The translations under genes and the position numbers were made by a program. Of a stretch of DNA of 64,000 bases, positions 3,374 to 56,215 are shown piece by piece. Location: the NCBI GenBank assembly GCA_017550655.1, contig JAFZOK010000018.1, forward strand, positions 62,001-126,000, written 5' to 3'. The DNA is from Bacteroidales bacterium. GTDB taxonomy: Bacteria > Bacteroidota > Bacteroidia > Bacteroidales > UBA932. The stretch's first letter is position 1; each line of letters opens with the position of its first letter. A model generated the notes under the pieces. It was not told where the DNA came from and made no database searches. It worked only from the letters and a program-made list of their open reading frames with translations.

Positions 3374-3879
3374 AATGATATTCCCTCCTTTTTGAGACTG
3401 ACGGAAAGCATCTGCCGCCCTCTCATATATTTGCTCCTTATGGAGTTTTCGTTCAACGATGTTATTTGCGCTATCTCCTGATAGTCATATCCTTCTATAA
3501 GTTTCAGAGACACTATCTGGCGGCAGCTGGAAGGAAGGCGGCCTATGAGGCTGACGATCTTTTTGATCAGGCTGCTTCCGCCTGTGCTTTCCTCGGCGAT
3601 TCCGTCTTCTTCGTCACCCGAGTATTGCATTTCCTTCCTTACCGACTCTTCCGTCTGCCTTCTTCTGAGGATATCCAGGGACTTGTTCACGCAGCTTCTT
3701 GAAAGGTAGGCTCCAAGGTTGTCAATCTTTTCAATGTCCTTTGAACACACCTTGAGAATAGTGTCCTGCATAACGTCTTCCGCCTCCTGGGAGTTGCCCA
3801 GTATGCGGTACGCGGCAATGTACAGCTTGCGGGAGTACTCGTCGTAGATATTCTCGATTATGCCGGTATTTGTCCTCAT
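3370..3879 (-). CDS. ECF-type RNA polymerase sigma factor (sigma-70 family)
   Basis: 169 residues, the usual length. Region 2 is seen at about 10-75 (YDEYSRKLYIAAYRILGN, then SQEAEDVMQDTILKVC and LGAYLSRSCVNKSLDILRRR). Region 4 is at about 110-160 (LPSSCRQIVSLKLIEGYDYQEIA, then LNENSIRSKYMRGRQML). It directs core polymerase to a small regulon. It is first in a three-gene operon with a membrane anti-sigma-like protein and a GIN-domain protein. It is divergent from the P5C dehydrogenase gene, with only about 100 bp between them and a palindrome in that gap. Signal and regulon are unknown. Confidence 0.9.
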   Translation of the reverse strand: MRTNTGIIENIYDEYSRKLYIAAYRILGNSQEAEDVMQDTILKVCSKDIEKIDNLGAYLSRSCVNKSLDILRRRQTEESVRKEMQYSGDEEDGIAEESTGGSSLIKKIVSLIGRLPSSCRQIVSLKLIEGYDYQEIAQITSLNENSIRSKYMRGRQMLSVSLKKEGISL

Positions 3880-3899
3880 TCCACTATTAAGACGTATGC

Positions 3900-3942
3900 T
3901 AATGCCTGATGTTGCAATTTAGGCATTAAAAAAGTAAATTTG
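3900..3942 (+). promoter_or_regulatory. Promoter of the P5C dehydrogenase gene with inverted repeat over the -33 box
   Basis: TTG at 3912-3914 and TAAATTTG at 3935-3942 are spaced 20 bp apart and match the Bacteroidota -33/-7 consensus. Eight-bp arms TAATGCCT (3900-3907) and AGGCATTA (3921-3928) flank the -33 element, as an operator would. A TTG codon at 3940, in frame with the gene, is part of the -7 box and therefore not the start codon. Confidence 0.7.
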
Positions 3943-3981
3943 TATGATTTGTTTACGAATAATCAATCAAAAGACATTTAT

Positions 3982-5607
3982 ATGAACAATTCTATTTTCA
4001 GTTTTCCGGTGCCTGCAAACGAGCCTGTAAAAGGTTATCTGGCCGGCAGCCCGGAGCGTATCGCTATTGACGCGGAACTTAAAAGACAGAGAAAAACCGT
4101 AATAGAGATTCCTCTCATCATCGGCGGAAAGGAAATCAAGACCGGAAATATGGGAGAAGTGGTTGAACCTCACAACCACAAGCACGTGCTGGCAAGATAT
4201 CACAAGGCCGGCGAAAAAGAGGTGCAGATGGCCGTTGACGCTGCAATGAAAGCCCACAAGGCTTGGGGAGAAACTCCTTGGACCACAAGGGCCGCCATAC
4301 TTCTCAAGGCAGCAGACCTCATTGCCGGAAAGTACAGGGCTCTTATCAATGCAGCTTGTATGCTCGGCCAGAGCAAGAACATGTTCCAGGCGGAGATTGA
4401 CTCAGCCTGCGAGCTGATAGACTTCCTCCGCTACAACGCCGCTTATGCTTCAGAGATCTACGCCATGCAGCCAAAGTGCGCTTCAGGTCAGATCAACTCA
4501 ATGGAATACAGGCCTCTGGAGGGATTCATCCTGGCCGTTACCCCGTTCAACTTCACATCCATCGCATCCAACCTGAACATGACTCCGGTTCTGATGGGTA
4601 ATACCACGGTCTGGAAGCCAAGTACAACCGCCCTTCTTTCCAACTACTATGTAATGAAGGTGTTTATGGAAGCCGGACTTCCTGCAGGAGTTGTTAACTT
4701 CCTCCCTGGCCCTGGCGCGGTTATCGGAAAGGTTGCCTGCGCAAGCCCGGATCTCGGCGGTATCCACTTTACCGGTTCAAGCGCAACGTTCTACGGATTG
4801 TGGAAGACTGTAGGAATGAACATAGACAAGTACAAGACATTCCCTCGCCTGGTTGGAGAGACTGGCGGAAAGGACTTCATTTTCGTACACCAGAGTGCAG
4901 ATCCTGAGGTTGTTGCCAACGCCGCCTTCTGCGGATCGTTTGAGTTTGCCGGCCAGAAGTGCTCTGCAGCCAGCCGTATGTACTGCCCTAAGAGCCTGTG
5001 GCCTAAGGTGCTTAAAGGCCTGAAGGACAGATGCTCCAAGGTTAAGGTAGGGGATGTGCTCAATCCTGAGAACTTTGTGAATGCGGTTATCGACGAGCCT
5101 TCTTTCGACAACATAGCAAAGGCAATCAACTACGCAAAGAGAAGCAAGGATGCCGAGGTGGTAATCGGCGGCCAGTGCGACAAGAGTGTGGGCTACTTCA
5201 TCCAGCCAACCGTCATCGTTGCCAAGAAGCCTCACTTCAAGACAATGGAAGAAGAGCTCTTCGGACCTGTTCTGACCGTGTATGTATATGAGGACAAGGA
5301 GCTTGACAAGGCTCTTGAGCTCTGCGACACAACATCTCCTTACGGCTTGACCGGTTCTGTATTTGGACAGGACAGGATGGCTTGCGAGTATATCTGCGAC
5401 AAGCTGCGCTACTGTGCCGGAAACTTCTATATCAACGACAAGCCTACCGGAGCAGTCGTAGGACTTCAGCCGTTCGGAGGAAGCCGCGCCAGCGGAACCA
5501 ACGACAAGGCCGGAAGTTCCTTCAACCTTATGAGATGGGTGACTTCCAGGGCGATAAAGGAGACTCTGGTTCCTCCTACATCGTGGAAATACTCTTATAT
5601 GAAATAA
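3982..5607 (+). CDS. pruA: L-glutamate gamma-semialdehyde dehydrogenase (1-pyrroline-5-carboxylate dehydrogenase)
   Basis: Oxidises glutamate-5-semialdehyde to glutamate with NAD+, the last step of proline and ornithine breakdown. 541 residues from the ATG at 3982, matching the stand-alone P5CDH length. The frame also opens 42 bases upstream at a TTG, but that lies inside the promoter -7 box. The aldehyde dehydrogenase fold is clear: TPFNFTSIASN in the Rossmann part, FTGSSAT, the catalytic Glu in LVGETGGKDF and the catalytic Cys327 in AGQKCSAASR. The C-terminal FGGSRASGTNDKAGS is typical of P5CDH. A dipeptidase follows 18 bp downstream, so the two are probably co-transcribed for peptide and amino-acid use. 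Confidence 0.95.
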   Translation: MNNSIFSFPVPANEPVKGYLAGSPERIAIDAELKRQRKTVIEIPLIIGGKEIKTGNMGEVVEPHNHKHVLARYHKAGEKEVQMAVDAAMKAHKAWGETPWTTRAAILLKAADLIAGKYRALINAACMLGQSKNMFQAEIDSACELIDFLRYNAAYASEIYAMQPKCASGQINSMEYRPLEGFILAVTPFNFTSIASNLNMTPVLMGNTTVWKPSTTALLSNYYVMKVFMEAGLPAGVVNFLPGPGAVIGKVACASPDLGGIHFTGSSATFYGLWKTVGMNIDKYKTFPRLVGETGGKDFIFVHQSADPEVVANAAFCGSFEFAGQKCSAASRMYCPKSLWPKVLKGLKDRCSKVKVGDVLNPENFVNAVIDEPSFDNIAKAINYAKRSKDAEVVIGGQCDKSVGYFIQPTVIVAKKPHFKTMEEELFGPVLTVYVYEDKELDKALELCDTTSPYGLTGSVFGQDRMACEYICDKLRYCAGNFYINDKPTGAVVGLQPFGGSRASGTNDKAGSSFNLMRWVTSRAIKETLVPPTSWKYSYMK

Positions 5608-46064: not shown

Positions 46065-47024
46065 ATGTTTAACAAATCCTATTATTCACTGACCCTTATG
46101 CTTTTATTGTTCTTGCTGTCCTCATGCAGTAAAGACAATAAGATAGTATCAGAAATAGATCAACCGGATTTGGATCAGGTTAAGGTTGATGAGGATGTAA
46201 AAACAGTCTCATTTAATGTTTCTAATTATATCGTAGATGGAGCATTAACAAAAACGGATATTGATGGTAATAATTTCGTTTGGACATCAGGAGATACTGT
46301 AGGTATTTATCCCAACACGGGAGCTCAGGTATATTTTGCTGTAAATGCTGGACAATCTGCGTCAAGTGCTAGTTTTGATGGCGGAGGATGGGGTTTTAAG
46401 ACTTCTGCCACTTATTATGGCTATTATCCTTTTATTGGTAATATTTATCTCGACAGAACCAAGATCCCAGTGTCATACTCTGGTCAAAAGCAGGTAGGTC
46501 AGAGTACAACCAGTCATATGGGGCCATATGATTATATGTACACTCTGCCTACTTCTGCCTCTTCAGGAAGCTTGAATTTCACCTTTAAGCATCTAAATTC
46601 TATTGTTTATTTCATAGCTACTCTTCCTGCCGGAACTTATACAAAGATGGCAATTACAGCTCCTTCAGAGCTATTTACGTCAAAAGGTTATTTCAATCTC
46701 ATGTCAAGCAGTCCAGTCATTGTTCCAACCGATTACACTAATCAGATAACAATAGACCTTGAGAACATTACCCTTACGGCGCAAACAACTTTTAATGTGT
46801 ATTTCATGTGTGCTCCTGTTAATTTGAACGGTATAGAAGTAACAGTTAGTGCACTTAACAGTGAAAGAAAGGAATACCAGTGCAAGAAGACCCCTTCAAG
46901 AGCCTATGTAGCAGGCACTATTTATTATCTTACCTGTAGCTCATTCTCAGAAGTTCCACAGTCCATGGGCCTTATCATTGATGATTGGGGTGATGGTGGA
47001 GACATCGGAGGCACAGCCGATTAA
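46065..47024 (+). CDS. Fimbrillin-family lipoprotein
   Basis: 319 residues, lipoprotein signal ending LLSSC (Cys20 or so). The mature protein has the fimbrillin (FimA/Mfa-like) pattern: VSFNVSNYIVDGALTKTDIDGNNFVWTSGDTVGIYP, then YYGYYPF, LNFTFKHLNSIVYFIATLP and the C-terminal YYLTCSSF...LIIDDWGDGGDIGG. Such proteins are exported as lipoproteins and form surface fibres or caps. Second coding unit of a locus with a small peptide and a huge fimbrillin/peptidase fusion. Base composition is AT-richer than the metabolic genes around it. Confidence 0.85.
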   Translation: MFNKSYYSLTLMLLLFLLSSCSKDNKIVSEIDQPDLDQVKVDEDVKTVSFNVSNYIVDGALTKTDIDGNNFVWTSGDTVGIYPNTGAQVYFAVNAGQSASSASFDGGGWGFKTSATYYGYYPFIGNIYLDRTKIPVSYSGQKQVGQSTTSHMGPYDYMYTLPTSASSGSLNFTFKHLNSIVYFIATLPAGTYTKMAITAPSELFTSKGYFNLMSSSPVIVPTDYTNQITIDLENITLTAQTTFNVYFMCAPVNLNGIEVTVSALNSERKEYQCKKTPSRAYVAGTIYYLTCSSFSEVPQSMGLIIDDWGDGGDIGGTAD

Positions 47025-47079
47025 AGTGTGACAGATCTCAAAACAGAATAAATAAGAATACAAATAATAAAAACGAACT

Positions 47080-50000
47080 ATGAAGATTTTCAAGTTGTTG
47101 ACATTAGCGGCACTTTCTGCCGTTATGCTATCTTCATGCGCCAAGGATGACCATAACATCCCACAGGCAATAGATGAAGGTCTAATTCCGCTTAATATCA
47201 GCGGATCAATAAAACAGGTTCCTACAAAAGCTACAGCTACTGGCTTTGTAGACAAGGATGCTGTCGGCCTCTTTGCCGTTAACTACGAGAGTAACAACAC
47301 AGTTGCCGGAGTTCTTAAAAACAGTGGCAATCAGGCAGATAACGTCCGTTATAACTTCGACGAGACAAACCACAAGTGGGTTCCGGTCCGTCCAGTCTAC
47401 TACAAGAACATCAACACTCACGTTGATCTTTATCTTTATTATCCTTTCCAGAGTTCTGTTACAGACGTAAATGCAGCAAACTTTGAGGTTCAGAAAGACC
47501 AGAGTACAGCTGCCACTGCAACGGCTCTTTCCGGTTACGAGGCTTCTGACTGGATGTGGGGTAAGGGAACAGATATTACTCCTACAGAGTCCAGTGTCAG
47601 CATTGCAATGAGCCACCGCCTTTCTGCAGTTCAGGTTACCCTTCAAGAAGGAACTGGCTTTGCTGAAGGTGAGTTTGAAGCCATTTCAAAGAGCGTTATC
47701 CTTACCAACACAACCAGAAAAGCCACTCTGGATTACTCTACCGGTACTCCAACTGCTCTTGGCAATCCTCAGAAAGATGGTATTGTAATGTGCCCTCAGT
47801 CCGGTGAGAATACTTCTTTCCGTGCCATTGTAATTCCGCAGACAGTTACAGCTAACACTCAGTTGTTTGCCATTACCTTGGATGGAGTTTCTTATTCTTT
47901 CAAACAGTCAAATGATGTGACCTATCAGCAGGGCAAGCAGCTTAATGTTACCATTACCCTGAACAAGAAGACTCCAACTGGAACATACGAGCTTCAGCTT
48001 GCAGATTCCCAGATTGTAGATTGGGTAGAAGACCTCAACTCCCATGGGGGAGAAGCTCGCCAGTATTATGTAGTTAACCTTACCACAGCCGGTACATTGG
48101 AAAGCGTTCTTGCCGCTGCCAACAAGAATCCGGATAAAATCCGCAATCTCAAGATTACCGGTAAAGTAAATGCCGATGATTACTACTATATGCGTGACCA
48201 CATGGCAATTCTTGAAGCCGTTAATATGAAAGAAACAGAGTATCAGGGAGATTCCCCTCTAATTCCAGGTGCAGCGTTTCAAGGTAAATCTACTCTAACA
48301 AACTATGTTTTTCCTGATAATATACAAAGTATTGGTAATGATGCTTTTGAGAATACTAAACTTAGTGGCGCTTTGATAATCCCTAATAATGTGGTATCTA
48401 TATATGATAGGGCATTCAATAATACATTAATAATCAGTGTTCAATTCTCTTCAGGATTAAAAACAATAGGTTCTTCTGCTTTTGCTGGATGTACGTCCTT
48501 ATCAGGCTCTTTGCTCTTACCAGAATCATTAGTCAGTATCGGTGACGACGCTTTTTCTAACTGCCGATTTACAGGCCGACTAGAATTGCCTTCTAATCTT
48601 GAAGACATTGGAAGAGGTGCATTTTATGCAAGCGGAACGTATACTGGAGGTCTTAAAATTCCTGATAAGATTAAGATTATTAGAAGAGGAGCATTTCAGT
48701 ATTCTCATTTTTCCGGAACATTAGATTTGAATAATGTGACTACATTTGAAGAAGATTTTATGTCTGGAGCCTTTTGGGAAGGTCATTTTATTGGAGATTT
48801 GATTATTCCTGAAGGTGTTGTATCTATACCGGGTTGGTTCTTTTCAGATAATCGATTCAGTTCAGTACATTTTCCTTCGACTTTAAGAGTAATTAAAGAA
48901 TCTGCATTTTCAAGCAATTCTTTTTCAGAACCATTAGTTTTCAATGAAGGATTATTGTCAATTGAGCAAAATGCTTTTAGTGGTTGTGGCTATATCACTT
49001 CTTTAGAGTTTCCATCTACTATGCAAAGCCTTGGAAATTCTGTTTTCTTTGGATGCTCAAATATCTCGTCTATTACTAGCAAAGCAATAGAGCCTCCTAC
49101 TGTCCAAAATGAGACATTTAATGGCGTAGCAAAAAACAACTTCACAGTAGAAGTTCCTGCATCTTCAATTAAGCGTTATCAAGCCGAAAATGGATGGAGC
49201 GATTTTAAAAGAATTGGAGCTCATTATGACTTCTCATTAAGTAGGAGGCTAATTCGAGCCTTGGATGAAGAGTTCTCAAAGACATTTGTACTTAGAGTTC
49301 CTACGGGAATGACGTGGGGTATTGATGAAAAGCCAGATTGGGTAACAATTACTCCTGCTTCTGGAATAGGAAAAACTGATGTAACTATAACAGTTGCAGA
49401 AATGCAGAGTTCTGAAGTAGGCACATTTGAGGTTAACGAGGGTACAGTTAATAGTCCTAGTTATATGAATTATTCAGGAAGAAGCGGGAGTATTGTGTTC
49501 AAGTTGGATGATAAAGACTATACATATTCTGTTGATGTAGAGCAGTATCATTCCAACTATACCGATGGAATAGTAGAAACTTTACAAACAGCAACTACCG
49601 GCCCTGGTATAGACATAGTGTTTGTTGGAGACGGCTATGATGCTAAGGATATTGCCAAAGGAGTGTTTCATGATAATGCGGTTGCTGGCTATGGACATTT
49701 CTTTGATGTGGAGCCGTATAAGACCTATAAAGAGTACTTTAATGTATATGCTGTGACAGCAATGTCAGATGAGACAGGAATCGGTACCGTAAATACAATT
49801 GTGGATACGAAGTTTGTCAGCACTTTTACTCAAAACAGAATTCTGCTAGAGAAACAAAACGATGTATTCCAATGGGCAAAGAAAGCAAATGCCAGTATGG
49901 ACCTTACAAAGAGCCTTGTGATCCTATTGCAGAATACAAGCACATACGAAGGAATAACGTATATGTATGGGGATGGTTCAGCTATAGCATGTTGCCCTGT

Positions 50001-50583
50001 TAGTGCGCAGGCTTATCCTTATGATTTTAGAGGAATTATTCAGCATGAAGCTGGCGGTCACGGATTTGGGAAGTTGGGAGATGAATATATCTATGCTAAC
50101 GCATTCATTCAGAACTGTGGCGGACCACATGATCATCCGCAATCCGATGGTGATACCAAAAGTTCTTATGGGCAGTTCAAAGCATTGGGGTGGTATAAGA
50201 ACTTATCAATGCTGGCAGATGCTCATAAGGTATCTTGGGCACATCTTATTTACAATAATAAGTATTCAGACTATGTAGATATGTATGAAGGTGGATATAT
50301 GCATAGTAGGGGTATTTATCGTTCTGAGGCAACAAGTTGTATGAACAATAATATTCCTTATTTCTCTGCTATTAGCCGTCAGGCTATTGTTGAGAGGATT
50401 AAGGAGTATGCCGGAGAGCAATTTACACTAGAGAGTTTCTATGCCCTTGATAAAGATGATTTTGGACCTACGTCAAAGGCTTCATCAGGTGTTCTTGGTT
50501 GGTCATTCGGCGTTGATCCTAAGTTTAATAGAGCAACAGGCCAGGGTCCTGTTTATATGGGTATGCATCCAAATGTTAAATAA
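47080..50583 (+). CDS. Multi-domain surface lipoprotein: fimbrillin + leucine-rich repeats + BACON-like + M64 peptidase
   Basis: 1167 residues, lipoprotein signal MKIFKLLTLAALSAVMLSSC (Cys20). Domains by eye: 1-300 fimbrillin-like (VGLFAVNY, DWMWGKGTDITP, ISHRLSAVQVTL-like); about 385-700 BspA-type leucine-rich repeats (YVFPDNIQSIGNDAFENT, LLLPESLVSIGDDAFSNC and others); about 720-835 a BACON-like Ig fold (PDWVTITPASGIGKTDVTITV); 835-1167 a peptidase M64 domain. The zinc motif is His989-Glu990-x3-His994 within QHEAGGHGFGKLGDEY, and GIDIVFVGDGYDAKD begins the domain. M64 includes the IgA peptidase of Clostridium. Target unknown. Confidence 0.88.
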   Translation: MKIFKLLTLAALSAVMLSSCAKDDHNIPQAIDEGLIPLNISGSIKQVPTKATATGFVDKDAVGLFAVNYESNNTVAGVLKNSGNQADNVRYNFDETNHKWVPVRPVYYKNINTHVDLYLYYPFQSSVTDVNAANFEVQKDQSTAATATALSGYEASDWMWGKGTDITPTESSVSIAMSHRLSAVQVTLQEGTGFAEGEFEAISKSVILTNTTRKATLDYSTGTPTALGNPQKDGIVMCPQSGENTSFRAIVIPQTVTANTQLFAITLDGVSYSFKQSNDVTYQQGKQLNVTITLNKKTPTGTYELQLADSQIVDWVEDLNSHGGEARQYYVVNLTTAGTLESVLAAANKNPDKIRNLKITGKVNADDYYYMRDHMAILEAVNMKETEYQGDSPLIPGAAFQGKSTLTNYVFPDNIQSIGNDAFENTKLSGALIIPNNVVSIYDRAFNNTLIISVQFSSGLKTIGSSAFAGCTSLSGSLLLPESLVSIGDDAFSNCRFTGRLELPSNLEDIGRGAFYASGTYTGGLKIPDKIKIIRRGAFQYSHFSGTLDLNNVTTFEEDFMSGAFWEGHFIGDLIIPEGVVSIPGWFFSDNRFSSVHFPSTLRVIKESAFSSNSFSEPLVFNEGLLSIEQNAFSGCGYITSLEFPSTMQSLGNSVFFGCSNISSITSKAIEPPTVQNETFNGVAKNNFTVEVPASSIKRYQAENGWSDFKRIGAHYDFSLSRRLIRALDEEFSKTFVLRVPTGMTWGIDEKPDWVTITPASGIGKTDVTITVAEMQSSEVGTFEVNEGTVNSPSYMNYSGRSGSIVFKLDDKDYTYSVDVEQYHSNYTDGIVETLQTATTGPGIDIVFVGDGYDAKDIAKGVFHDNAVAGYGHFFDVEPYKTYKEYFNVYAVTAMSDETGIGTVNTIVDTKFVSTFTQNRILLEKQNDVFQWAKKANASMDLTKSLVILLQNTSTYEGITYMYGDGSAIACCPVSAQAYPYDFRGIIQHEAGGHGFGKLGDEYIYANAFIQNCGGPHDHPQSDGDTKSSYGQFKALGWYKNLSMLADAHKVSWAHLIYNNKYSDYVDMYEGGYMHSRGIYRSEATSCMNNNIPYFSAISRQAIVERIKEYAGEQFTLESFYALDKDDFGPTSKASSGVLGWSFGVDPKFNRATGQGPVYMGMHPNVK

Positions 50584-50600
50584 AGAAATGAGAAAACGAT

Positions 50601-51476
50601 ATGAAAAAGTTTATCTATATAGTTCTAGCATTAATCTTTGCTGTATCCTGCAGTAAAAGCGAGGCTCCAGTAAGCAATCAGATGGAGTTTATGTTCTCCA
50701 TCGGTAATGGCGCTACCAAGGTAACCACAACAGGAAAAACAGCTGTATTTGACTTAGGTGATGCTGTAAGCTTATATGCCGTTGAATGGGATGGAACTGA
50801 GCAGATGCCGCTCCAAGTATCCGGAAACTATCTCAATAACGAGAAGATAAGCTACAATGGAACAAACTGGACTAGCCTCAGGACTCTTTATTGGAGCGAT
50901 AATCCTTGCGATTTCTATGCTCTCTACCCTTATCAGGCAAGCTTTTCTTCAATAGAGAAGCAGCCGTTTTCAGTGGCTTTGGATCAGAATACAGGAGACG
51001 GCTATGATAAGTCTGACCTTATGTATGCCTATGCCGAGAATAAATCCCGAACAGATGGTCCCGTTGCTATGAACTTTAACCACATTATGTCTAAGGTTGT
51101 GGTTAATTTGGTTAAGGGTACGAATTTCGAGGGAGAAATACCAAGTGATGCTGTGGCTCACGTTTACAGCACGATAACGGACTGCTATGTTAATATGACT
51201 TCAGGTTCCATAGAAAAGGACGTTTTTGCCAACAAAAACACCATTACTATGAAGAAGATAAGTAATGATAAGTTTGAGGCAATAGTGGTACCTCAGAACC
51301 TCGAAAAGAGGACTCCTTTGATTGAAATTTCAATGGGAGGTATTGCTTACCTTCTGGAAACATCGCTGAGCTTTAGGGCAGGATATCAGCATACAATCAC
51401 ATTAACCCTCAATACCTCTCCAGACCAGGAGATGATAGAGATATCTATTGATCCGGGTATTAATCCTTGGAACTAA
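50601..51476 (+). CDS. Fimbrillin-family lipoprotein, last of the surface operon
   Basis: 291 residues, lipoprotein signal MKKFIYIVLALIFAVSC (Cys17). Fimbrillin features: VFDLGDAVSLYAVEWDG, ISYNGTNWTSLRTLYWSDNPCDFYALYPY, DLMYAYAENKSRTDGPVAMNFNHIMSKVVVNLVKG and the final HTITLTLNT...ISIDPGINPWN. It follows the M64 fusion by 17 bp. Probably a surface fibre or anchor subunit for the locus. Confidence 0.85.
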   Translation: MKKFIYIVLALIFAVSCSKSEAPVSNQMEFMFSIGNGATKVTTTGKTAVFDLGDAVSLYAVEWDGTEQMPLQVSGNYLNNEKISYNGTNWTSLRTLYWSDNPCDFYALYPYQASFSSIEKQPFSVALDQNTGDGYDKSDLMYAYAENKSRTDGPVAMNFNHIMSKVVVNLVKGTNFEGEIPSDAVAHVYSTITDCYVNMTSGSIEKDVFANKNTITMKKISNDKFEAIVVPQNLEKRTPLIEISMGGIAYLLETSLSFRAGYQHTITLTLNTSPDQEMIEISIDPGINPWN

Positions 51477-51503: not shown

Positions 51504-51809
51504 ATGAAATCTTTTTATCCATTTACCCTCACTGTAAAGAAAGGGGGGAACGATAGCATCAGAAAGTTGTATGCTCAACCAAACCAATGCAGATCCTGGA
51601 TGGCTAATCTAGACCCAAAACAAATCATAATTCATCTCGGTAATGAATCTATAATTAATCCAACTTCTGGATTGTTGAAAAGATTCTCATTAAATAAACG
51701 AAAAATATCAAACTGGCTGATTTGTAACGGTTATCAGTTGGATGATCAGTTGACCTTTTTAGTCGTTGAGGACTCATTGGGATACACGCATTTTTTACTT
51801 TGTAAATGA
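51504..51809 (+). CDS. Small orphan protein of 101 residues
   Basis: No recognised family. Starts MKSFYPFTLTVKKGG and contains PKQIIIHLGNESIINP and LNKRKISNWLICNGYQLDDQ, then ends YTHFLLCK. Cytoplasmic by composition, with no signal sequence. It follows the last fimbrillin-like gene by 27 bp on the same strand, so it may be part of that transcript. The amino-acid mix is ordinary, which supports it being real. Confidence 0.6.
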   Translation: MKSFYPFTLTVKKGGNDSIRKLYAQPNQCRSWMANLDPKQIIIHLGNESIINPTSGLLKRFSLNKRKISNWLICNGYQLDDQLTFLVVEDSLGYTHFLLCK

Positions 51810-51918
51810 CAATACCAATCAGATTTAAAGTAATTGATTGGGCCGTTTTTAGCGTTCATTATTCATTTCGCAATTTTGAAAACTGCGGAAAAGGTTGTAA
51901 CTATGTAGCTCGGGAATC

Positions 51919-52584
51919 GTGAACATGAAATCAGATAATAAAGAATTAAAGAAGGCCGCAGAGGCTAAAGATGTCAAAGAAAGCAAGGACGGAAAAGCTG
52001 GGAAGGCTGGGAAGGCTGGGATGGAGATACCTGAGCTTAGCTTTCTGTTGAAATCGGTGGAGAAGGTGTATGGGAGAAGGGTGGCAACAACTACGGATTT
52101 TGAATCGCTGAGTGTTGTCATTGAGCATGAGATAGGGGAACACCTGTCTGCATCAACACTGAAGAGACTGTGGGGATATGTAGGGGACAGGAGGATTCCT
52201 CGCCTGGATACGCTGGATATACTGGCCAAGTATTGCGGAAAGAAGGACTTTAAGGGATTTTGCGAATGGATGGTGGAAGAAAGCGGGGTGGATTCTCAGT
52301 TCTTTACTGTACGGTATATCCGTGCCGCAGATCTTTCTTCGGGAGATAGTCTTTCGCTGGGATGGGCACCGGACCGCCTGGTTAGGGTGGAGTATCTAGG
52401 CCAGGGGAGGTTCCGGGTGCTGTCGAGTGCAAATTCTAAACTTAAAGTGGGGGATGAGTTTGAAGCAGATGGCTTTATGCTGGGTTGTCCGCTATATATC
52501 ACCGCCATTTATCGGGAAGGCAAGGTTCTGCCTGCATACGTTGCCGGAAGGGTGCACGGGCTGTCTGTGCTGGAAAAATGCTGA
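51919..52584 (+). CDS. Bacteroidales-type putative DNA-binding regulator
   Basis: 221 residues. The N-terminus holds a low-complexity KDGKAGKAGKAG run (a 9-bp DNA repeat). Residues 35-120 form a helical domain with LSASTLKRLWGYVGD and DILAKYCGKKDFKGFCEWM, which looks like a helix-turn-helix. Residues 130-221 are a beta-rich domain with SLGWAPDRLVRVEYLGQGRFRVL, KVGDEFEADGFMLGCPLYI. I recall similar sequences widely in Bacteroidales but know no function. It stands upstream of the LRR lipoprotein, kinase and barrel gene on the same strand, which suggests a regulator of that cluster; this is inference. Confidence 0.65.
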   Translation: MNMKSDNKELKKAAEAKDVKESKDGKAGKAGKAGMEIPELSFLLKSVEKVYGRRVATTTDFESLSVVIEHEIGEHLSASTLKRLWGYVGDRRIPRLDTLDILAKYCGKKDFKGFCEWMVEESGVDSQFFTVRYIRAADLSSGDSLSLGWAPDRLVRVEYLGQGRFRVLSSANSKLKVGDEFEADGFMLGCPLYITAIYREGKVLPAYVAGRVHGLSVLEKC

Positions 52585-52603
52585 TGAATCATCAAAATTA
52601 TGA

Positions 52604-52680
52604 GATTTTGGAATATTTCGGCTATTTAAATTTGGGGATTTTGGAATATTTGCGCTGTTTAAATTGTGGGATTTTGGAAT
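52604..52680. repeat. 33-bp tandem repeat, 2.3 copies
   Basis: Units begin at 52604, 52637 and 52670 with GATTTTGGAAT(ATTT). The first unit contains TAAATTTG at 52627-52634, a perfect -7 box for the LRR lipoprotein gene 66 bp on. The period is 33 bp (11 codons), so an open frame runs across it, but the codons make only an 11-residue repeat. Confidence 0.6.
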
Positions 52681-52699
52681 AAGACCCACAAATCTTTAG

Positions 52700-54253
52700 A
52701 TGAATTCTGTAAGAAATATTCATCGAGAATTAGTAATTATGTGTAGGGCTCTGAGGTTTTCCGCTGTTTGGGTTGCTGTTGCCGTTATCTCTTTGTTGAC
52801 GGCAATGGTGGCTGGCTGTGCCGGAGATCCGGGCCTGGAGGGGCTGAAAATGCCGGAATTTGTAAGCGTATCGGCGCAGGCGGACGAGAACTCTCTGTTA
52901 TTGACCTGCTCGTATAAAGGCCGCGGGGTAGGTACCTGCGGATTTGTGGTAACACGGGATGGAGAGCTGGTGAAAAGGCAGGAAGCAAGCACAAGGAGCG
53001 ATGGAGCCTTTTCATTGACTGTAAAGGAGCTGGAGTATGATACCGATTACACTTACTATGCCTGGATATCAAACGGCTCGGCAGAAATTCACTCGAATAC
53101 AGGTAATGCACGCACGGAGAAGAAGAAGATTTCCAAGCCTGAAATCGTGAGCGTATCCTTTGAGGCGGACGAGAATATTCTGACGCTTCGCTGCTCATAT
53201 AAGGGAACTGGGGTGGATGGCTGCGGATTCTATTTCAACGGGTCGGATAAGATGGCGGCAGACGTAAGGTCTGACGAGGCCTTCTCCTTGACATTGAGGA
53301 ACCTTGAGTACGACAAAGAATATGATTACCAGGCTTATGTAACAAGCGGGCAAACGGAGGTCAAGTCGTCTTTAGGGAAAGCCCGTACGGGCAAGATGGC
53401 TTCCATTCCTATTCCTGATGCGGCTTTCAAGGCCTATATTCTGGGCAAATTTGACGTGGACAAGAACGGCAAACTGGGAATGGAAGAGGCGGAAAAGATA
53501 ACCAGGCTGGAAATCAATACGTTTGACTTGAAGGTAAAATCGCTTGAAGGCATAGAGTACTTTACAAATCTGGAATACCTCAAGGCTGTGGGATACGATG
53601 ATAGCCGGAGGGGAGAAGTGACTTCTCTTGACCTTAGCGGGAACAAGAAGCTCAATACACTGTACTGCAGTTTCAACAAGCTGGAATTTATGGATTTGGG
53701 CAACAGCAGTTCTCTAAAATATGTGGACTGCAGTTCAAATATGCTGTTGAATGTGAATATGGCCGACCACCGTCCGGATTTCAGCCAGCTTACAGGACTG
53801 GAGCATCTGGACTGTCACTCAAATGAAGGACTGGTTGTATTTTTAATGTACAATACGGCCCTCAAATATCTGGATTGCAGCAATACGGTAGGCTTTGACT
53901 ATGTAGGGTACTGCGTTTCTCTGGAATACCTTGACTGTAGCCGCTGTTCGGGTATGATGGCTGGCTTTATTCTGACAGGGCTGAAGAAGCTGGCCACGCT
54001 TAAGTGCAACGATATAAATATCAGCGAATTAGATGTAAGCGACTGCACTGCCTTGACAGAGCTTGAGTGCTATCAGAATAATATCGGGGAACTGGATGTA
54101 AGTGCCCAGAACAAGCTGAATTTGAGAATCTGGCCTCAAAACGGCACTTTATCCAGGCTTTGGATAGGAAGCGGGGAGTATCATTATTATAATTCCTCCG
54201 GGGCGGCGGTAAATCCTGCCGATTACGGAACTGAGGTAATTGTAAAAGAATAG
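52700..54253 (+). CDS. Lipoprotein with two Ig-like repeats, EF-hand-like motif and leucine-rich repeats
   Basis: 517 residues from ATG 52700 (an ATG at 52739 is possible). Lipobox TAMVAGC with Cys40 (or Cys27). Residues about 50-140 and 143-225 are tandem copies of one domain (both begin FVSVS(A/F)xADEN and contain CSYKG.GV..CGF). About 250 is an EF-hand-like DVDKNGKLGMEEAEK. About 265-500 are leucine-rich repeats of the form LEYLDCS(R/N), each with a conserved Cys. The end is a short beta tail. This is a surface-exposed or periplasmic sensor/binding protein by composition. Its stop is 4 bp from the kinase start. Confidence 0.8.
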   Translation: MNSVRNIHRELVIMCRALRFSAVWVAVAVISLLTAMVAGCAGDPGLEGLKMPEFVSVSAQADENSLLLTCSYKGRGVGTCGFVVTRDGELVKRQEASTRSDGAFSLTVKELEYDTDYTYYAWISNGSAEIHSNTGNARTEKKKISKPEIVSVSFEADENILTLRCSYKGTGVDGCGFYFNGSDKMAADVRSDEAFSLTLRNLEYDKEYDYQAYVTSGQTEVKSSLGKARTGKMASIPIPDAAFKAYILGKFDVDKNGKLGMEEAEKITRLEINTFDLKVKSLEGIEYFTNLEYLKAVGYDDSRRGEVTSLDLSGNKKLNTLYCSFNKLEFMDLGNSSSLKYVDCSSNMLLNVNMADHRPDFSQLTGLEHLDCHSNEGLVVFLMYNTALKYLDCSNTVGFDYVGYCVSLEYLDCSRCSGMMAGFILTGLKKLATLKCNDINISELDVSDCTALTELECYQNNIGELDVSAQNKLNLRIWPQNGTLSRLWIGSGEYHYYNSSGAAVNPADYGTEVIVKE

Positions 54254-54257
54254 AATT

Positions 54258-55334
54258 ATGGTGGACGAATCCGGCTTTTTCTTTGAGTCCTCAGCAAAAG
54301 AGACATGGGGAGTGGGAACACCCGAGAGAATCGGGGGCTCTCTTACCGGATGGTCCGAAATATGGCGAGTGGAAAGGGACGGGAAGTTCCGGGTACTCAA
54401 ATCGCTGAAGCCGGATTACGTGAGGCTTCCTCTGTACGAGGGGTTGCTTAAGAAAGAGTTTGACATAGGATCGTCTTTGAAGCATCCGAATATATGCCAG
54501 ACATACGAGTTTGCCGAGAATCCGGCCCTTGGAAACTGCATAGAGATGGAATGGGTGGATGGCAGGAATCTTGATGCGGTTAAGGATGAAAGCCGGAAGG
54601 ATCCGCACCTGGCACGAAAACTCATCCTTGAAATCTGCGATGCGCTGATATGCGTACATTCCAGACAGATGGTCCATCAGGACCTGAAGCCGTCCAACAT
54701 TCTGGTGACTTATAACGGCAACAATGTGAAAATCATAGACTTTGGCCTCTCCATAGAAGACTCTCAGACAGAGCTTAAGATATCGGGAGGAACAAAGGCT
54801 TATGCCGCTCCGGAACTCCTTGAGGGCAAGAAGGCAGATGTACGCAGCGATATATATTCTCTTGGGAAAGTTATTGAACAGATTTCTCCGCGATACAGAC
54901 GGATTGTCAGGCGTTGCTGCAGGCAGAATCCTTCAGAGAGGTATCTGTCCGTGGCCGACGTCAAAAAGGCCATCCTCAAAAGAGACTCGGGGCTGCCTTG
55001 GGTTCTGCCGGCGGCAATTGCAGCGGCGGCAGCAGCCGTGGTGGCGGTATTGCTCCTTGTGAACCGCGGGGGAGGGGATGAGTCTTCCGCCAGTACTGTG
55101 GATGCTGTAACGAGGCAAGACTATGCCGTCTCCTATACTCGGGTTTCCGATGCGGATATCGGTGAAAAACAAGACCTTACAAGGCCAGAAATACCGGCGG
55201 AATCCACGGTGAAGGAAAAGCCAAAGCAGGTAGAGCCTGCCAAAAAGATTGAAGTGATTGAAGACGAGACAGACCTCGACGATCTGTTTGATTCCGTAAC
55301 GGAACTCTTTGAGGAAAAGGAGGGCGGCAAATGA
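54258..55334 (+). CDS. Transmembrane serine/threonine protein kinase
   Basis: 358 residues. All catalytic features are present: Lys48 (VLKSLK), Glu67 in the C-helix, HQD with Asp142, Lys144 and Asn147 (VHQDLKPSNIL), Asp161 in IDFGLS, APE at 184-186 and Asp198 (SDIYSLG). The Gly-rich loop is degenerate (GGSLTGWSEIW). One transmembrane helix lies at about 248-268 (PWVLPAAIAAAAAAVVAVLLLV), and an acidic/Lys-rich 90-residue tail follows outside. It therefore resembles Pkn-type receptor kinases, without PASTA or beta-propeller sensor. Upstream LRR lipoprotein and downstream barrel protein (ATGATG overlap) suggest a shared system. Confidence 0.9.
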   Translation: MVDESGFFFESSAKETWGVGTPERIGGSLTGWSEIWRVERDGKFRVLKSLKPDYVRLPLYEGLLKKEFDIGSSLKHPNICQTYEFAENPALGNCIEMEWVDGRNLDAVKDESRKDPHLARKLILEICDALICVHSRQMVHQDLKPSNILVTYNGNNVKIIDFGLSIEDSQTELKISGGTKAYAAPELLEGKKADVRSDIYSLGKVIEQISPRYRRIVRRCCRQNPSERYLSVADVKKAILKRDSGLPWVLPAAIAAAAAAVVAVLLLVNRGGGDESSASTVDAVTRQDYAVSYTRVSDADIGEKQDLTRPEIPAESTVKEKPKQVEPAKKIEVIEDETDLDDLFDSVTELFEEKEGGK

Positions 55335-56215
55335 TGCGGACGGGAAGATATGTTCTGGCAATGTGCCTTGTAATGCTTTGCAGCTCAGCCTTTAGCCAGA
55401 GGCGTGATGCCAGGGACAAGGCTCTCGACAGGTATGATGTGGTTTGCAACCGTCTCATTGAGCTCCGCGATGCTCTTCGTAGAGGAGAAACAATATCCGC
55501 TCAGGAACTGTCTGCCCTGAGGGCTGAGGTGAGTAGCATACGTTCCAACCTGCAAAGGAGTCCGGAGGGTTTGACTCCTGAGCAGACAATAAGGTTCAAC
55601 CGTATCCGCCGCCGCTACAACTACGGCTATGAACTGAAGGAACTGTCCATGATAAAGGCGATACCGGTTACATATAGGGCAAAAGACATCCGGATGTCCG
55701 GACGTTATCCTTATATGGAACAGCCGTATTATGATATCGGGAAGACTGGCTTTCTGGCACTTGCACAGGTATCTCCAGTTCCGGACATGGCATTTGGACT
55801 ATGCTTGGGTATGCTGCGGAGCGGTAAGGGAGCCTATGTATCCGTAGTAAGCAACTTTAAGTCAAGAAGCGCAAGCATTGATTGCCTCAGCGACGGAACC
55901 TCATCCGGAAACCCGGTTTGGGTGTCCGGACGTCAGGATAAGACCAGACTGGCAATTACGGCAGGTGGCATATTCCGCGTTGCAGACAACGTAAACCTCT
56001 TGGCCGGAGCAGGTTATGGTACAAGAAAACTCCTCTGGGAGAATACCGGAGGAGATTGGATGCGGGTTACAGACCGCTCTTATTCGGGCATTGCGGCAGA
56101 GGCCGGAGCCCTATTTACACTAGGAAGGCGAGAGTCTTTCTGCCTAAGTGCAAAGGCAGGGACTATCGCCTTCAAGTATCTGGATTTTACAGTCGGTATA
56201 GGATACCGGTTCTGA
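55331..56215 (+). CDS. Outer-membrane barrel protein with N-terminal coiled coil, linked to the kinase
   Basis: 294 residues. Signal peptide to SSAFSQ (about residue 24). Residues 25-95 are charged helices, probably coiled coil (RDARDKALDRYDVVCNRLIELRDALRRGE). The rest has beta strands and ends FTVGIGYRF with terminal Phe. The start overlaps the kinase stop by 4 bases, so the two are translationally coupled. No known family. It ends 1 bp before the stop of the convergent hydrogenase subunit. Confidence 0.75.
   Translation: MMRTGRYVLAMCLVMLCSSAFSQRRDARDKALDRYDVVCNRLIELRDALRRGETISAQELSALRAEVSSIRSNLQRSPEGLTPEQTIRFNRIRRRYNYGYELKELSMIKAIPVTYRAKDIRMSGRYPYMEQPYYDIGKTGFLALAQVSPVPDMAFGLCLGMLRSGKGAYVSVVSNFKSRSASIDCLSDGTSSGNPVWVSGRQDKTRLAITAGGIFRVADNVNLLAGAGYGTRKLLWENTGGDWMRVTDRSYSGIAAEAGALFTLGRRESFCLSAKAGTIAFKYLDFTVGIGYRF

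Follow-up and report, generated by a model that had tools for sequence, protein, structure and literature searches.

A 64,000-nucleotide stretch of a Bacteroidales genome (the window) carries adjacent genes for a predicted helix-turn-helix (HTH) regulator, a leucine-rich repeat (LRR) lipoprotein, a transmembrane Ser/Thr kinase and an outer-membrane barrel protein. On present evidence, these gene products probably form a trans-envelope signalling module in which the barrel and the lipoprotein sense the outside and the kinase controls its paired DNA-binding protein. A wider reading, less certain though quite possible, is that they represent a new class of modular Bacteroidales trans-envelope systems. 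Such systems would have a fixed core of an HTH-plus-beta regulator and a single-pass Ser/Thr kinase, to which exchangeable sensors in the outer membrane or periplasm (OmpX-like barrel, WG-repeat-like protein, DUF6591-type lipoprotein, LRR/EF-hand lipoprotein) connect either through a three-helix coupling domain common to them or by being fused directly. They would yield, among others, bacterial LRR receptor kinases, and would bring surface signals past two membranes without TonB, an anti-sigma factor or a histidine kinase.

The source genome is a 2.26-Mb draft in 42 contigs from a rumen-type Bacteroidales, with the four genes at 51919-56215 of the window. The nearest named record, L069, is a Bacteroidales MAG from water-buffalo omasum, whose regulator is 93% identical. 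Other names among the best 80 of 455 relatives are Cryptobacteroides, Cacconaster, Bacteroides and Prevotellaceae.

The four genes and their products

The open reading frames of all four genes were confirmed, all on the same strand (Table 1). The 4-nt gap between the lipoprotein and kinase genes and the 4-nt overlap between the kinase and barrel genes, both described in the original prediction, were also found in the sequence.

Table 1. Features of the window in and around the putative signalling module
Feature	Position	Strand	Description
Accessory surface protein	47080-50583	+	1167 aa; fimbrillin-like, BspA LRR, BACON-like and M64 peptidase domains
Accessory fimbrillin-like protein	50601-51476	+	With the preceding gene, pair spans 47080..51476
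Promoter-like element	51875..51905	+	TTTG-N19-TAACTATG; ahead of regulator gene; by eye, suggestive only
Regulator gene	51919..52584	+	Predicted HTH (repressor/XRE-type) domain, then small beta domain; constant partner of the kinase
Three 33-bp direct repeats, then about 48 nt resembling an L069 ORF	52595..52738	+	Similarity is to the L069 ORF 3970-5313, near its 3' end
Putative sensor lipoprotein	52739..54253	+	Lipobox, two Ig/fn3-like domains, EF-hand-like motif, leucine-rich repeats
Transmembrane Ser/Thr kinase	54258..55334	+	Catalytic domain about 28-236, cytoplasmic; TM 250-268; linker; C-terminal helix motif DLDDLFDSVTELFE
Outer-membrane protein	55331..56215	+	Signal peptide; three-helix periplasmic domain about 22-106; linker; OmpX/OmpA-like 8-strand barrel about 140-294

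The kinase matches the Pkinase model (E 4.8e-32) and contains the Lys, Glu, HxD, Asn and DFG elements of a Hanks-type Ser/Thr kinase. As claimed earlier, it is complete in catalytic residues (K48, E67, H140, D142, K144, N147, D161-F-G, D194 and R228), with one membrane helix and an outer tail. The glycine loop is atypical, and the HRD motif reads HQD in the window, with R in most closer relatives. The segment at 250-268 is the only strongly hydrophobic one (KD 2.69), and the outer tail comprises about 90 residues. A Pfam domain scan of the kinase gave no PASTA or propeller match, again in agreement with the original prediction. NF033483 matches the kinase domain at 116.9 bits against an NCBIfam cut-off of 450, which places the protein outside the PASTA kinases.

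The regulator gene begins with GTG, and an ATG is also present at 51925. Its product is predicted to consist of a repressor-type HTH and a small beta domain. The HTH fold match, with a five-helix repressor-like fold as the criterion, has weak E and Z values, and no confident fold match was obtained for the beta domain. Compared by sequence with solved structures, the regulator gave four matches (E 0.083-0.51), which are not credible. The Pfam domain scan found no known phosphorylation-dependent domain in it. No TM segment was found either, the highest 19-residue hydropathy being 0.84, so that the protein does not belong to the ToxR-like membrane-bound class. A mobile-element reading was rejected because the regulator has no match in phage and plasmid collections. 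The HTH part alone also turns up across Bacteroidota (L150-L168), on chains about 300-450 aa long that contain a hydrophobic segment; in other members of this set it is found on long chains that look NTPase-like by eye.

The lipoprotein ORF is listed from 52700, and its likely start is the ATG at 52739. This start is preferred because the preceding nucleotides (about 48) match part of a distinct 447-aa ORF of L069, close to its 3' end, and because the L069 lipoprotein begins (MCNALRFSAVW) at the corresponding place. With this start, the protein opens with a typical lipoprotein leader that ends in VAGC. The leucine-rich repeats proposed for it are borne out by an LRR_4 match (E 1.2e-11). Its duplicated Ig-like domains are sub-threshold in the window protein (fn3 E 0.06) and clear in a Bacteroides counterpart (fn3 8.9e-9). 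The proposed EF-hand-like motif, DVDKNGKLGMEEA, is recognizable by eye in the window, and of 29 proteins scanned, 12 have a Pfam EF-hand_1 match with E no higher than 0.01. The make-up of the lipoproteins varies.

The barrel protein has a hydrophobic leader and is predicted to form an 8-strand OmpX/OmpA-like barrel. Foldseek matched its AF2 model (pLDDT 87.3) to OmpX, Ail, OmpA and OprF (prob 1.00). The part formerly described as a coiled coil is instead a three-helix domain in the predicted structure.

Linkage across relatives and natural fusions

The 199 genomes of the family were searched with the kinase and, independently, with a regulator profile. Each full-length regulator match (36 in all) has its own partner among the 36 best kinase matches no more than 3.4 kb away, and no full-length regulator occurs within 5 kb of the kinase matches ranked 37-46. 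The original prediction held that kinase homologues in unrelated neighbourhoods would argue against a functional unit, and these pairs speak to the contrary. Regulator and kinase are on the same strand in 15 pairs, convergent in 12 and divergent in nine; the linkage has therefore outlived repeated rearrangement. The best 19 barrel-protein matches in these genomes (E up to 6.6e-65) are likewise all at regulator-kinase loci, by eye.

A regulator search in a second collection gave 455 relatives, the best 80 of which were used for locus counts. A kinase lies within 5 kb in 73 of the 80 loci and a barrel in 72; in the 48 loci that extend 4 kb or more to either side, the counts are 48 and 46. LRR or BspA/M64-type matches, which are partly repeat-based, occur within 5 kb in 57/80. 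Regulator, kinase and barrel are all present at 70 of these loci, most often arranged as regulator>, kinase<, barrel> (46), and the window layout of regulator>, kinase>, barrel> is found in five. Conservation of the four-gene order had been proposed as a test, and it proved not to be general: among the best 80, the order of the window is found in L069-L073 only, two of which have an extra ORF in between. Since the layouts differ while the linkage is kept, the operon is local and the association is not. The invariant core is the regulator plus the kinase, and the lipoprotein and barrel are usual but replaceable.

An inversion is visible between two close loci. The lipoprotein-regulator segment of L132 (1956-4333) is inverted with respect to that of L134 (7130-9459), with 84.7% identity inside and about 94-98% in the flanks. 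This pair and the many orientations had suggested an invertible, phase-variable kinase, which is not supported; no inverted repeats were seen at the L132/L134 junctions, one of which has N runs nearby in L132.

The three-helix domain was found in 73 of the best 80 loci and in 22 of 35 family loci, the other 13 having none detected. Five of the seven misses among the 80 (L077, L078, L081, L087 and L126) have less than 3 kb on one side. The domain is not confined to barrel proteins. At L041, L047-L049 and L118 it occurs in separate proteins close to the kinase, and those of L048 (E 5e-4) and L041 (0.019) show WG-repeat matches below threshold. Separate three-helix proteins are also found at L055-L057 and L062, where the kinases have no full barrel partner, and those of L056, L057 and L062 are lipoproteins by eye. 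In L056 and L057 the C-terminal part of DUF6591 (PF20234) coincides with the three-helix domain, above the Pfam cut-off. The window barrel protein gave no DUF6591 match at the Pfam gathering score, and a DUF6591 search in 41 genomes gave one match, below the cut-off.

In L052 and L117, the three-helix domain of the barrel protein is located at the C-terminus of the kinase, after the TM segment. A three-helix model built without these two loci recovered them at E 2.8e-4 and 3.9e-4 (single-domain E 0.0014 and 0.013); at E<1e-3, the three-helix model matches 95 of 4599 ORFs and none of 4599 reversed ORFs. L042 (8779-10194) and L139 (8548-10053) encode kinase-TM-LRR chains, with LRR_4 matches of 1.9e-6 and 2.4e-9 and sub-threshold EF-hand stretches. 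Neither a barrel nor a three-helix domain was found at these two loci. Both kinds of fusion place the three-helix domain and the LRRs on the periplasmic side with the kinase tail. They also name the domains that are expected to interact, which makes the module directly testable, and the L042 and L139 chains mean that LRR-receptor-kinase-like proteins occur in gut bacteria. L169 (5637-7100) joins the HTH part, a kinase-like domain and, by eye, a TM segment in one protein. Its catalytic Asp is replaced by N (HNNIKSEN, with HNN for HRD), and to judge from these residues it is probably a pseudokinase, the copy looking inactive. Together, the linkage and the kinase fusions with LRR and three-helix domains lend support to the proposed unit of lipoprotein, barrel, kinase and regulator.

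Many kinases in barrel-bearing loci end, after a linker, in a short amphipathic motif like that of the window kinase. With a cross-validated profile, this tail helix was detected in 58 of 71 kinases that have a barrel-profile match within 1.5 kb and in one of 22 others; this single exception, L087, has a contig end 1.7 kb away. With a less strict profile cut, the counts are 64/71 and 3/22 (Fisher p 2.6e-11). Six of the 22, from Bacteroides and Prevotellaceae (L129, L137, L138, L140, L148 and L146), have a barrel-profile match 1.6-2.2 kb away, and the tail motif is absent in five of them. L140 is the locus of the commensal Bacteroides sp. ET71. After relabelling of these six, the tail helix is found in 65/77 and 2/16 (p 5.7e-8). 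Contrasts on the kinase tree gave five independent pairs, of which on average 2.7 agree and 1.0 disagree (sign test, median p 0.625); a 5-kb barrel label gave six pairs, with 2.8 agreeing and 1.1 disagreeing (p 0.625). The association between tail helix and barrel can thus be explained by shared ancestry. For part of the family, the tail helix can be put forward as a candidate docking site.

Proposed signalling route, alternatives and known systems

In the proposed route, the LRR/EF-hand surface lipoprotein and the OmpX-like barrel would report an outside condition at the outer membrane. The three-helix periplasmic domain of the barrel protein, and perhaps the lipoprotein as well, would then engage the periplasmic tail of the single-pass kinase, in many lineages perhaps via its conserved C-terminal helix. 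The kinase is postulated to change the activity of its dedicated HTH partner, most likely by phosphorylation, and the latter would control transcription, plausibly that of the module itself and of surface genes close by, the fimbrillin/M64 pair for example. The linkage, the predicted folds and the fusions were observed; from them we infer a direction of signalling, docking of the tail, phosphorylation and DNA binding of the regulator, a ligand and targets.

The regulator and kinase could also be the working pair with the lipoprotein and barrel as its outputs, that is, as regulated surface proteins and not as inputs. The fimbrillin/M64 surface genes are likewise linked, the lipoprotein has a variable make-up, and most Bacteroides-type kinases lack the tail helix although a barrel is present. 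The LRR and three-helix domains are nevertheless fused to the periplasmic side of the kinase in L042, L139, L052 and L117, which favours a role as input or scaffold, and a pure output role appears rather unlikely. It is also conceivable that the kinase targets envelope proteins or others and that the HTH protein is a mere autoregulator of the locus. Bacterial Ser/Thr kinases commonly have many substrates, which fits this idea, as do the regulator without a known phosphorylation-dependent domain and its beta domain without an assigned function. The one-to-one pairing of regulator and kinase, kept over divergent kinases despite rearranged order, and the HTH-kinase-like fusion in L169 point instead to a dedicated partner, and autoregulation as the sole role of the HTH protein is considered unlikely.

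The PADLOC models for PD-T4-6 match the kinase (best 3.8e-35), as would be expected of an anti-phage defence kinase, of that or a similar type, with passenger envelope genes. Such an identity is very improbable, since the match is limited to the kinase domain, at the level of generic models such as Pkinase, while the regulator is unmatched in phage and plasmid collections and the relatives include fusions to surface domains. A chance or ancestral neighbourhood without a functional link would draw on the shared ancestry of the loci, but it is hard to reconcile with linkage kept through repeated changes of order and strand, with the fusions and with the 36/36 pairing, and can be given almost no weight.

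The preferred reading, a trans-envelope module, has partial counterparts among known systems. The PASTA kinases PknB and Stk1 have the same arrangement of N-terminal cytoplasmic catalytic domain, single TM segment and C-terminal outer part. The window kinase differs in that its outer part is a linker and short helix without PASTA (an LRR or three-helix domain in relatives), and in its pairing with an HTH protein and outer-membrane partners. ToxR-like membrane-tethered regulators likewise have an HTH output controlled across the inner membrane, and Bacteroidota relatives of the window HTH domain are found, by eye, on chains with a hydrophobic segment; the window HTH protein itself has none, membrane crossing being left to a separate kinase. 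Plant LRR receptor-like kinases combine an outside LRR, a TM segment and an inside Ser/Thr kinase in one chain, as do L042 and L139. This resemblance is one of architecture only, with inverted domain order, and in the window the LRR and kinase are separate proteins. The barrel protein shares its 8-strand fold with OmpX/Ail and OmpA, and has an N-terminal three-helix periplasmic domain in place of the C-terminal domain of OmpA.

What is known of how Bacteroidota relay outer-membrane events to transcription comes mostly from TonB/anti-sigma and hybrid two-component systems. In the SusCD/TonB-anti-sigma and hybrid two-component systems, too, an event at the outer membrane is passed to transcription, but the four genes of the window include none for a TonB receptor, an anti-sigma factor or a histidine kinase. 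If the proposed module is real, it would work on a different principle, with a Ser/Thr kinase as the route, a barrel and a lipoprotein as inputs and a DNA-binding protein as the dedicated partner. That the set is kept together in many relatives, in varied order and sometimes fused, suggests an uncharacterised form of surface-to-gene signalling. Searches of open-access literature, at the level of titles and abstract openings, gave no description of a fixed regulator-kinase core combined with exchangeable outer inputs. Taken singly, the parts are familiar (Hanks kinase, repressor-type HTH, OmpX-like barrel, LRR lipoprotein); as far as those titles and openings go, it is the combination that is new, which is not proof of absence in print.

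Accessory genes and upstream regions

A gene group around the 1167-aa fimbrillin/BspA LRR/BACON/M64 protein occupies 46065-51476 of the window. Relatives of its M64 domain (E up to 1.3e-82) and of the fimbrillin occur at the same 17 of the 80 module loci (best 80 of 455), including all six Bacteroides-named loci, which have one common layout. In the 199 genomes, the M64 domain at large is present in 147; close M64 matches (E up to 2.2e-95) are found in nine, two of which are module-linked by eye. Close fimbrillin matches (E below 1e-60) are found in three of 59 genomes, that of the window included. Because the M64 domain is widespread and only two of the nine closest matches are module-linked, these genes were rejected as part of the module core and kept as accessory. 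The pair may be a regulated output of the module. A 101-aa ORF without a Pfam match lies between the fimbrillin gene and the regulator (51504-51809).

The repeat region between the regulator and lipoprotein genes is probably outside the signalling module. In L069 the same 33-bp repeats precede the 447-aa ORF, which lies between regulator and lipoprotein (3847-5313, with the ORF at 3970-5313). From this comparison, the window seems to have lost the 447-aa gene, with only the short remnant left and the upstream repeats kept. The repeats were set aside as an operator of the regulator, as in L069 another ORF follows them. No copy of their 14-base core, with up to two substitutions allowed, was found in L070-L073. 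The promoter-like element ahead of the regulator gene resembles, with one mismatch, a Bacteroidota -33/-7 consensus (TTTG...TAnnTTTG), and similar text is also present 5' of the regulator gene in L069, L070 and L073.
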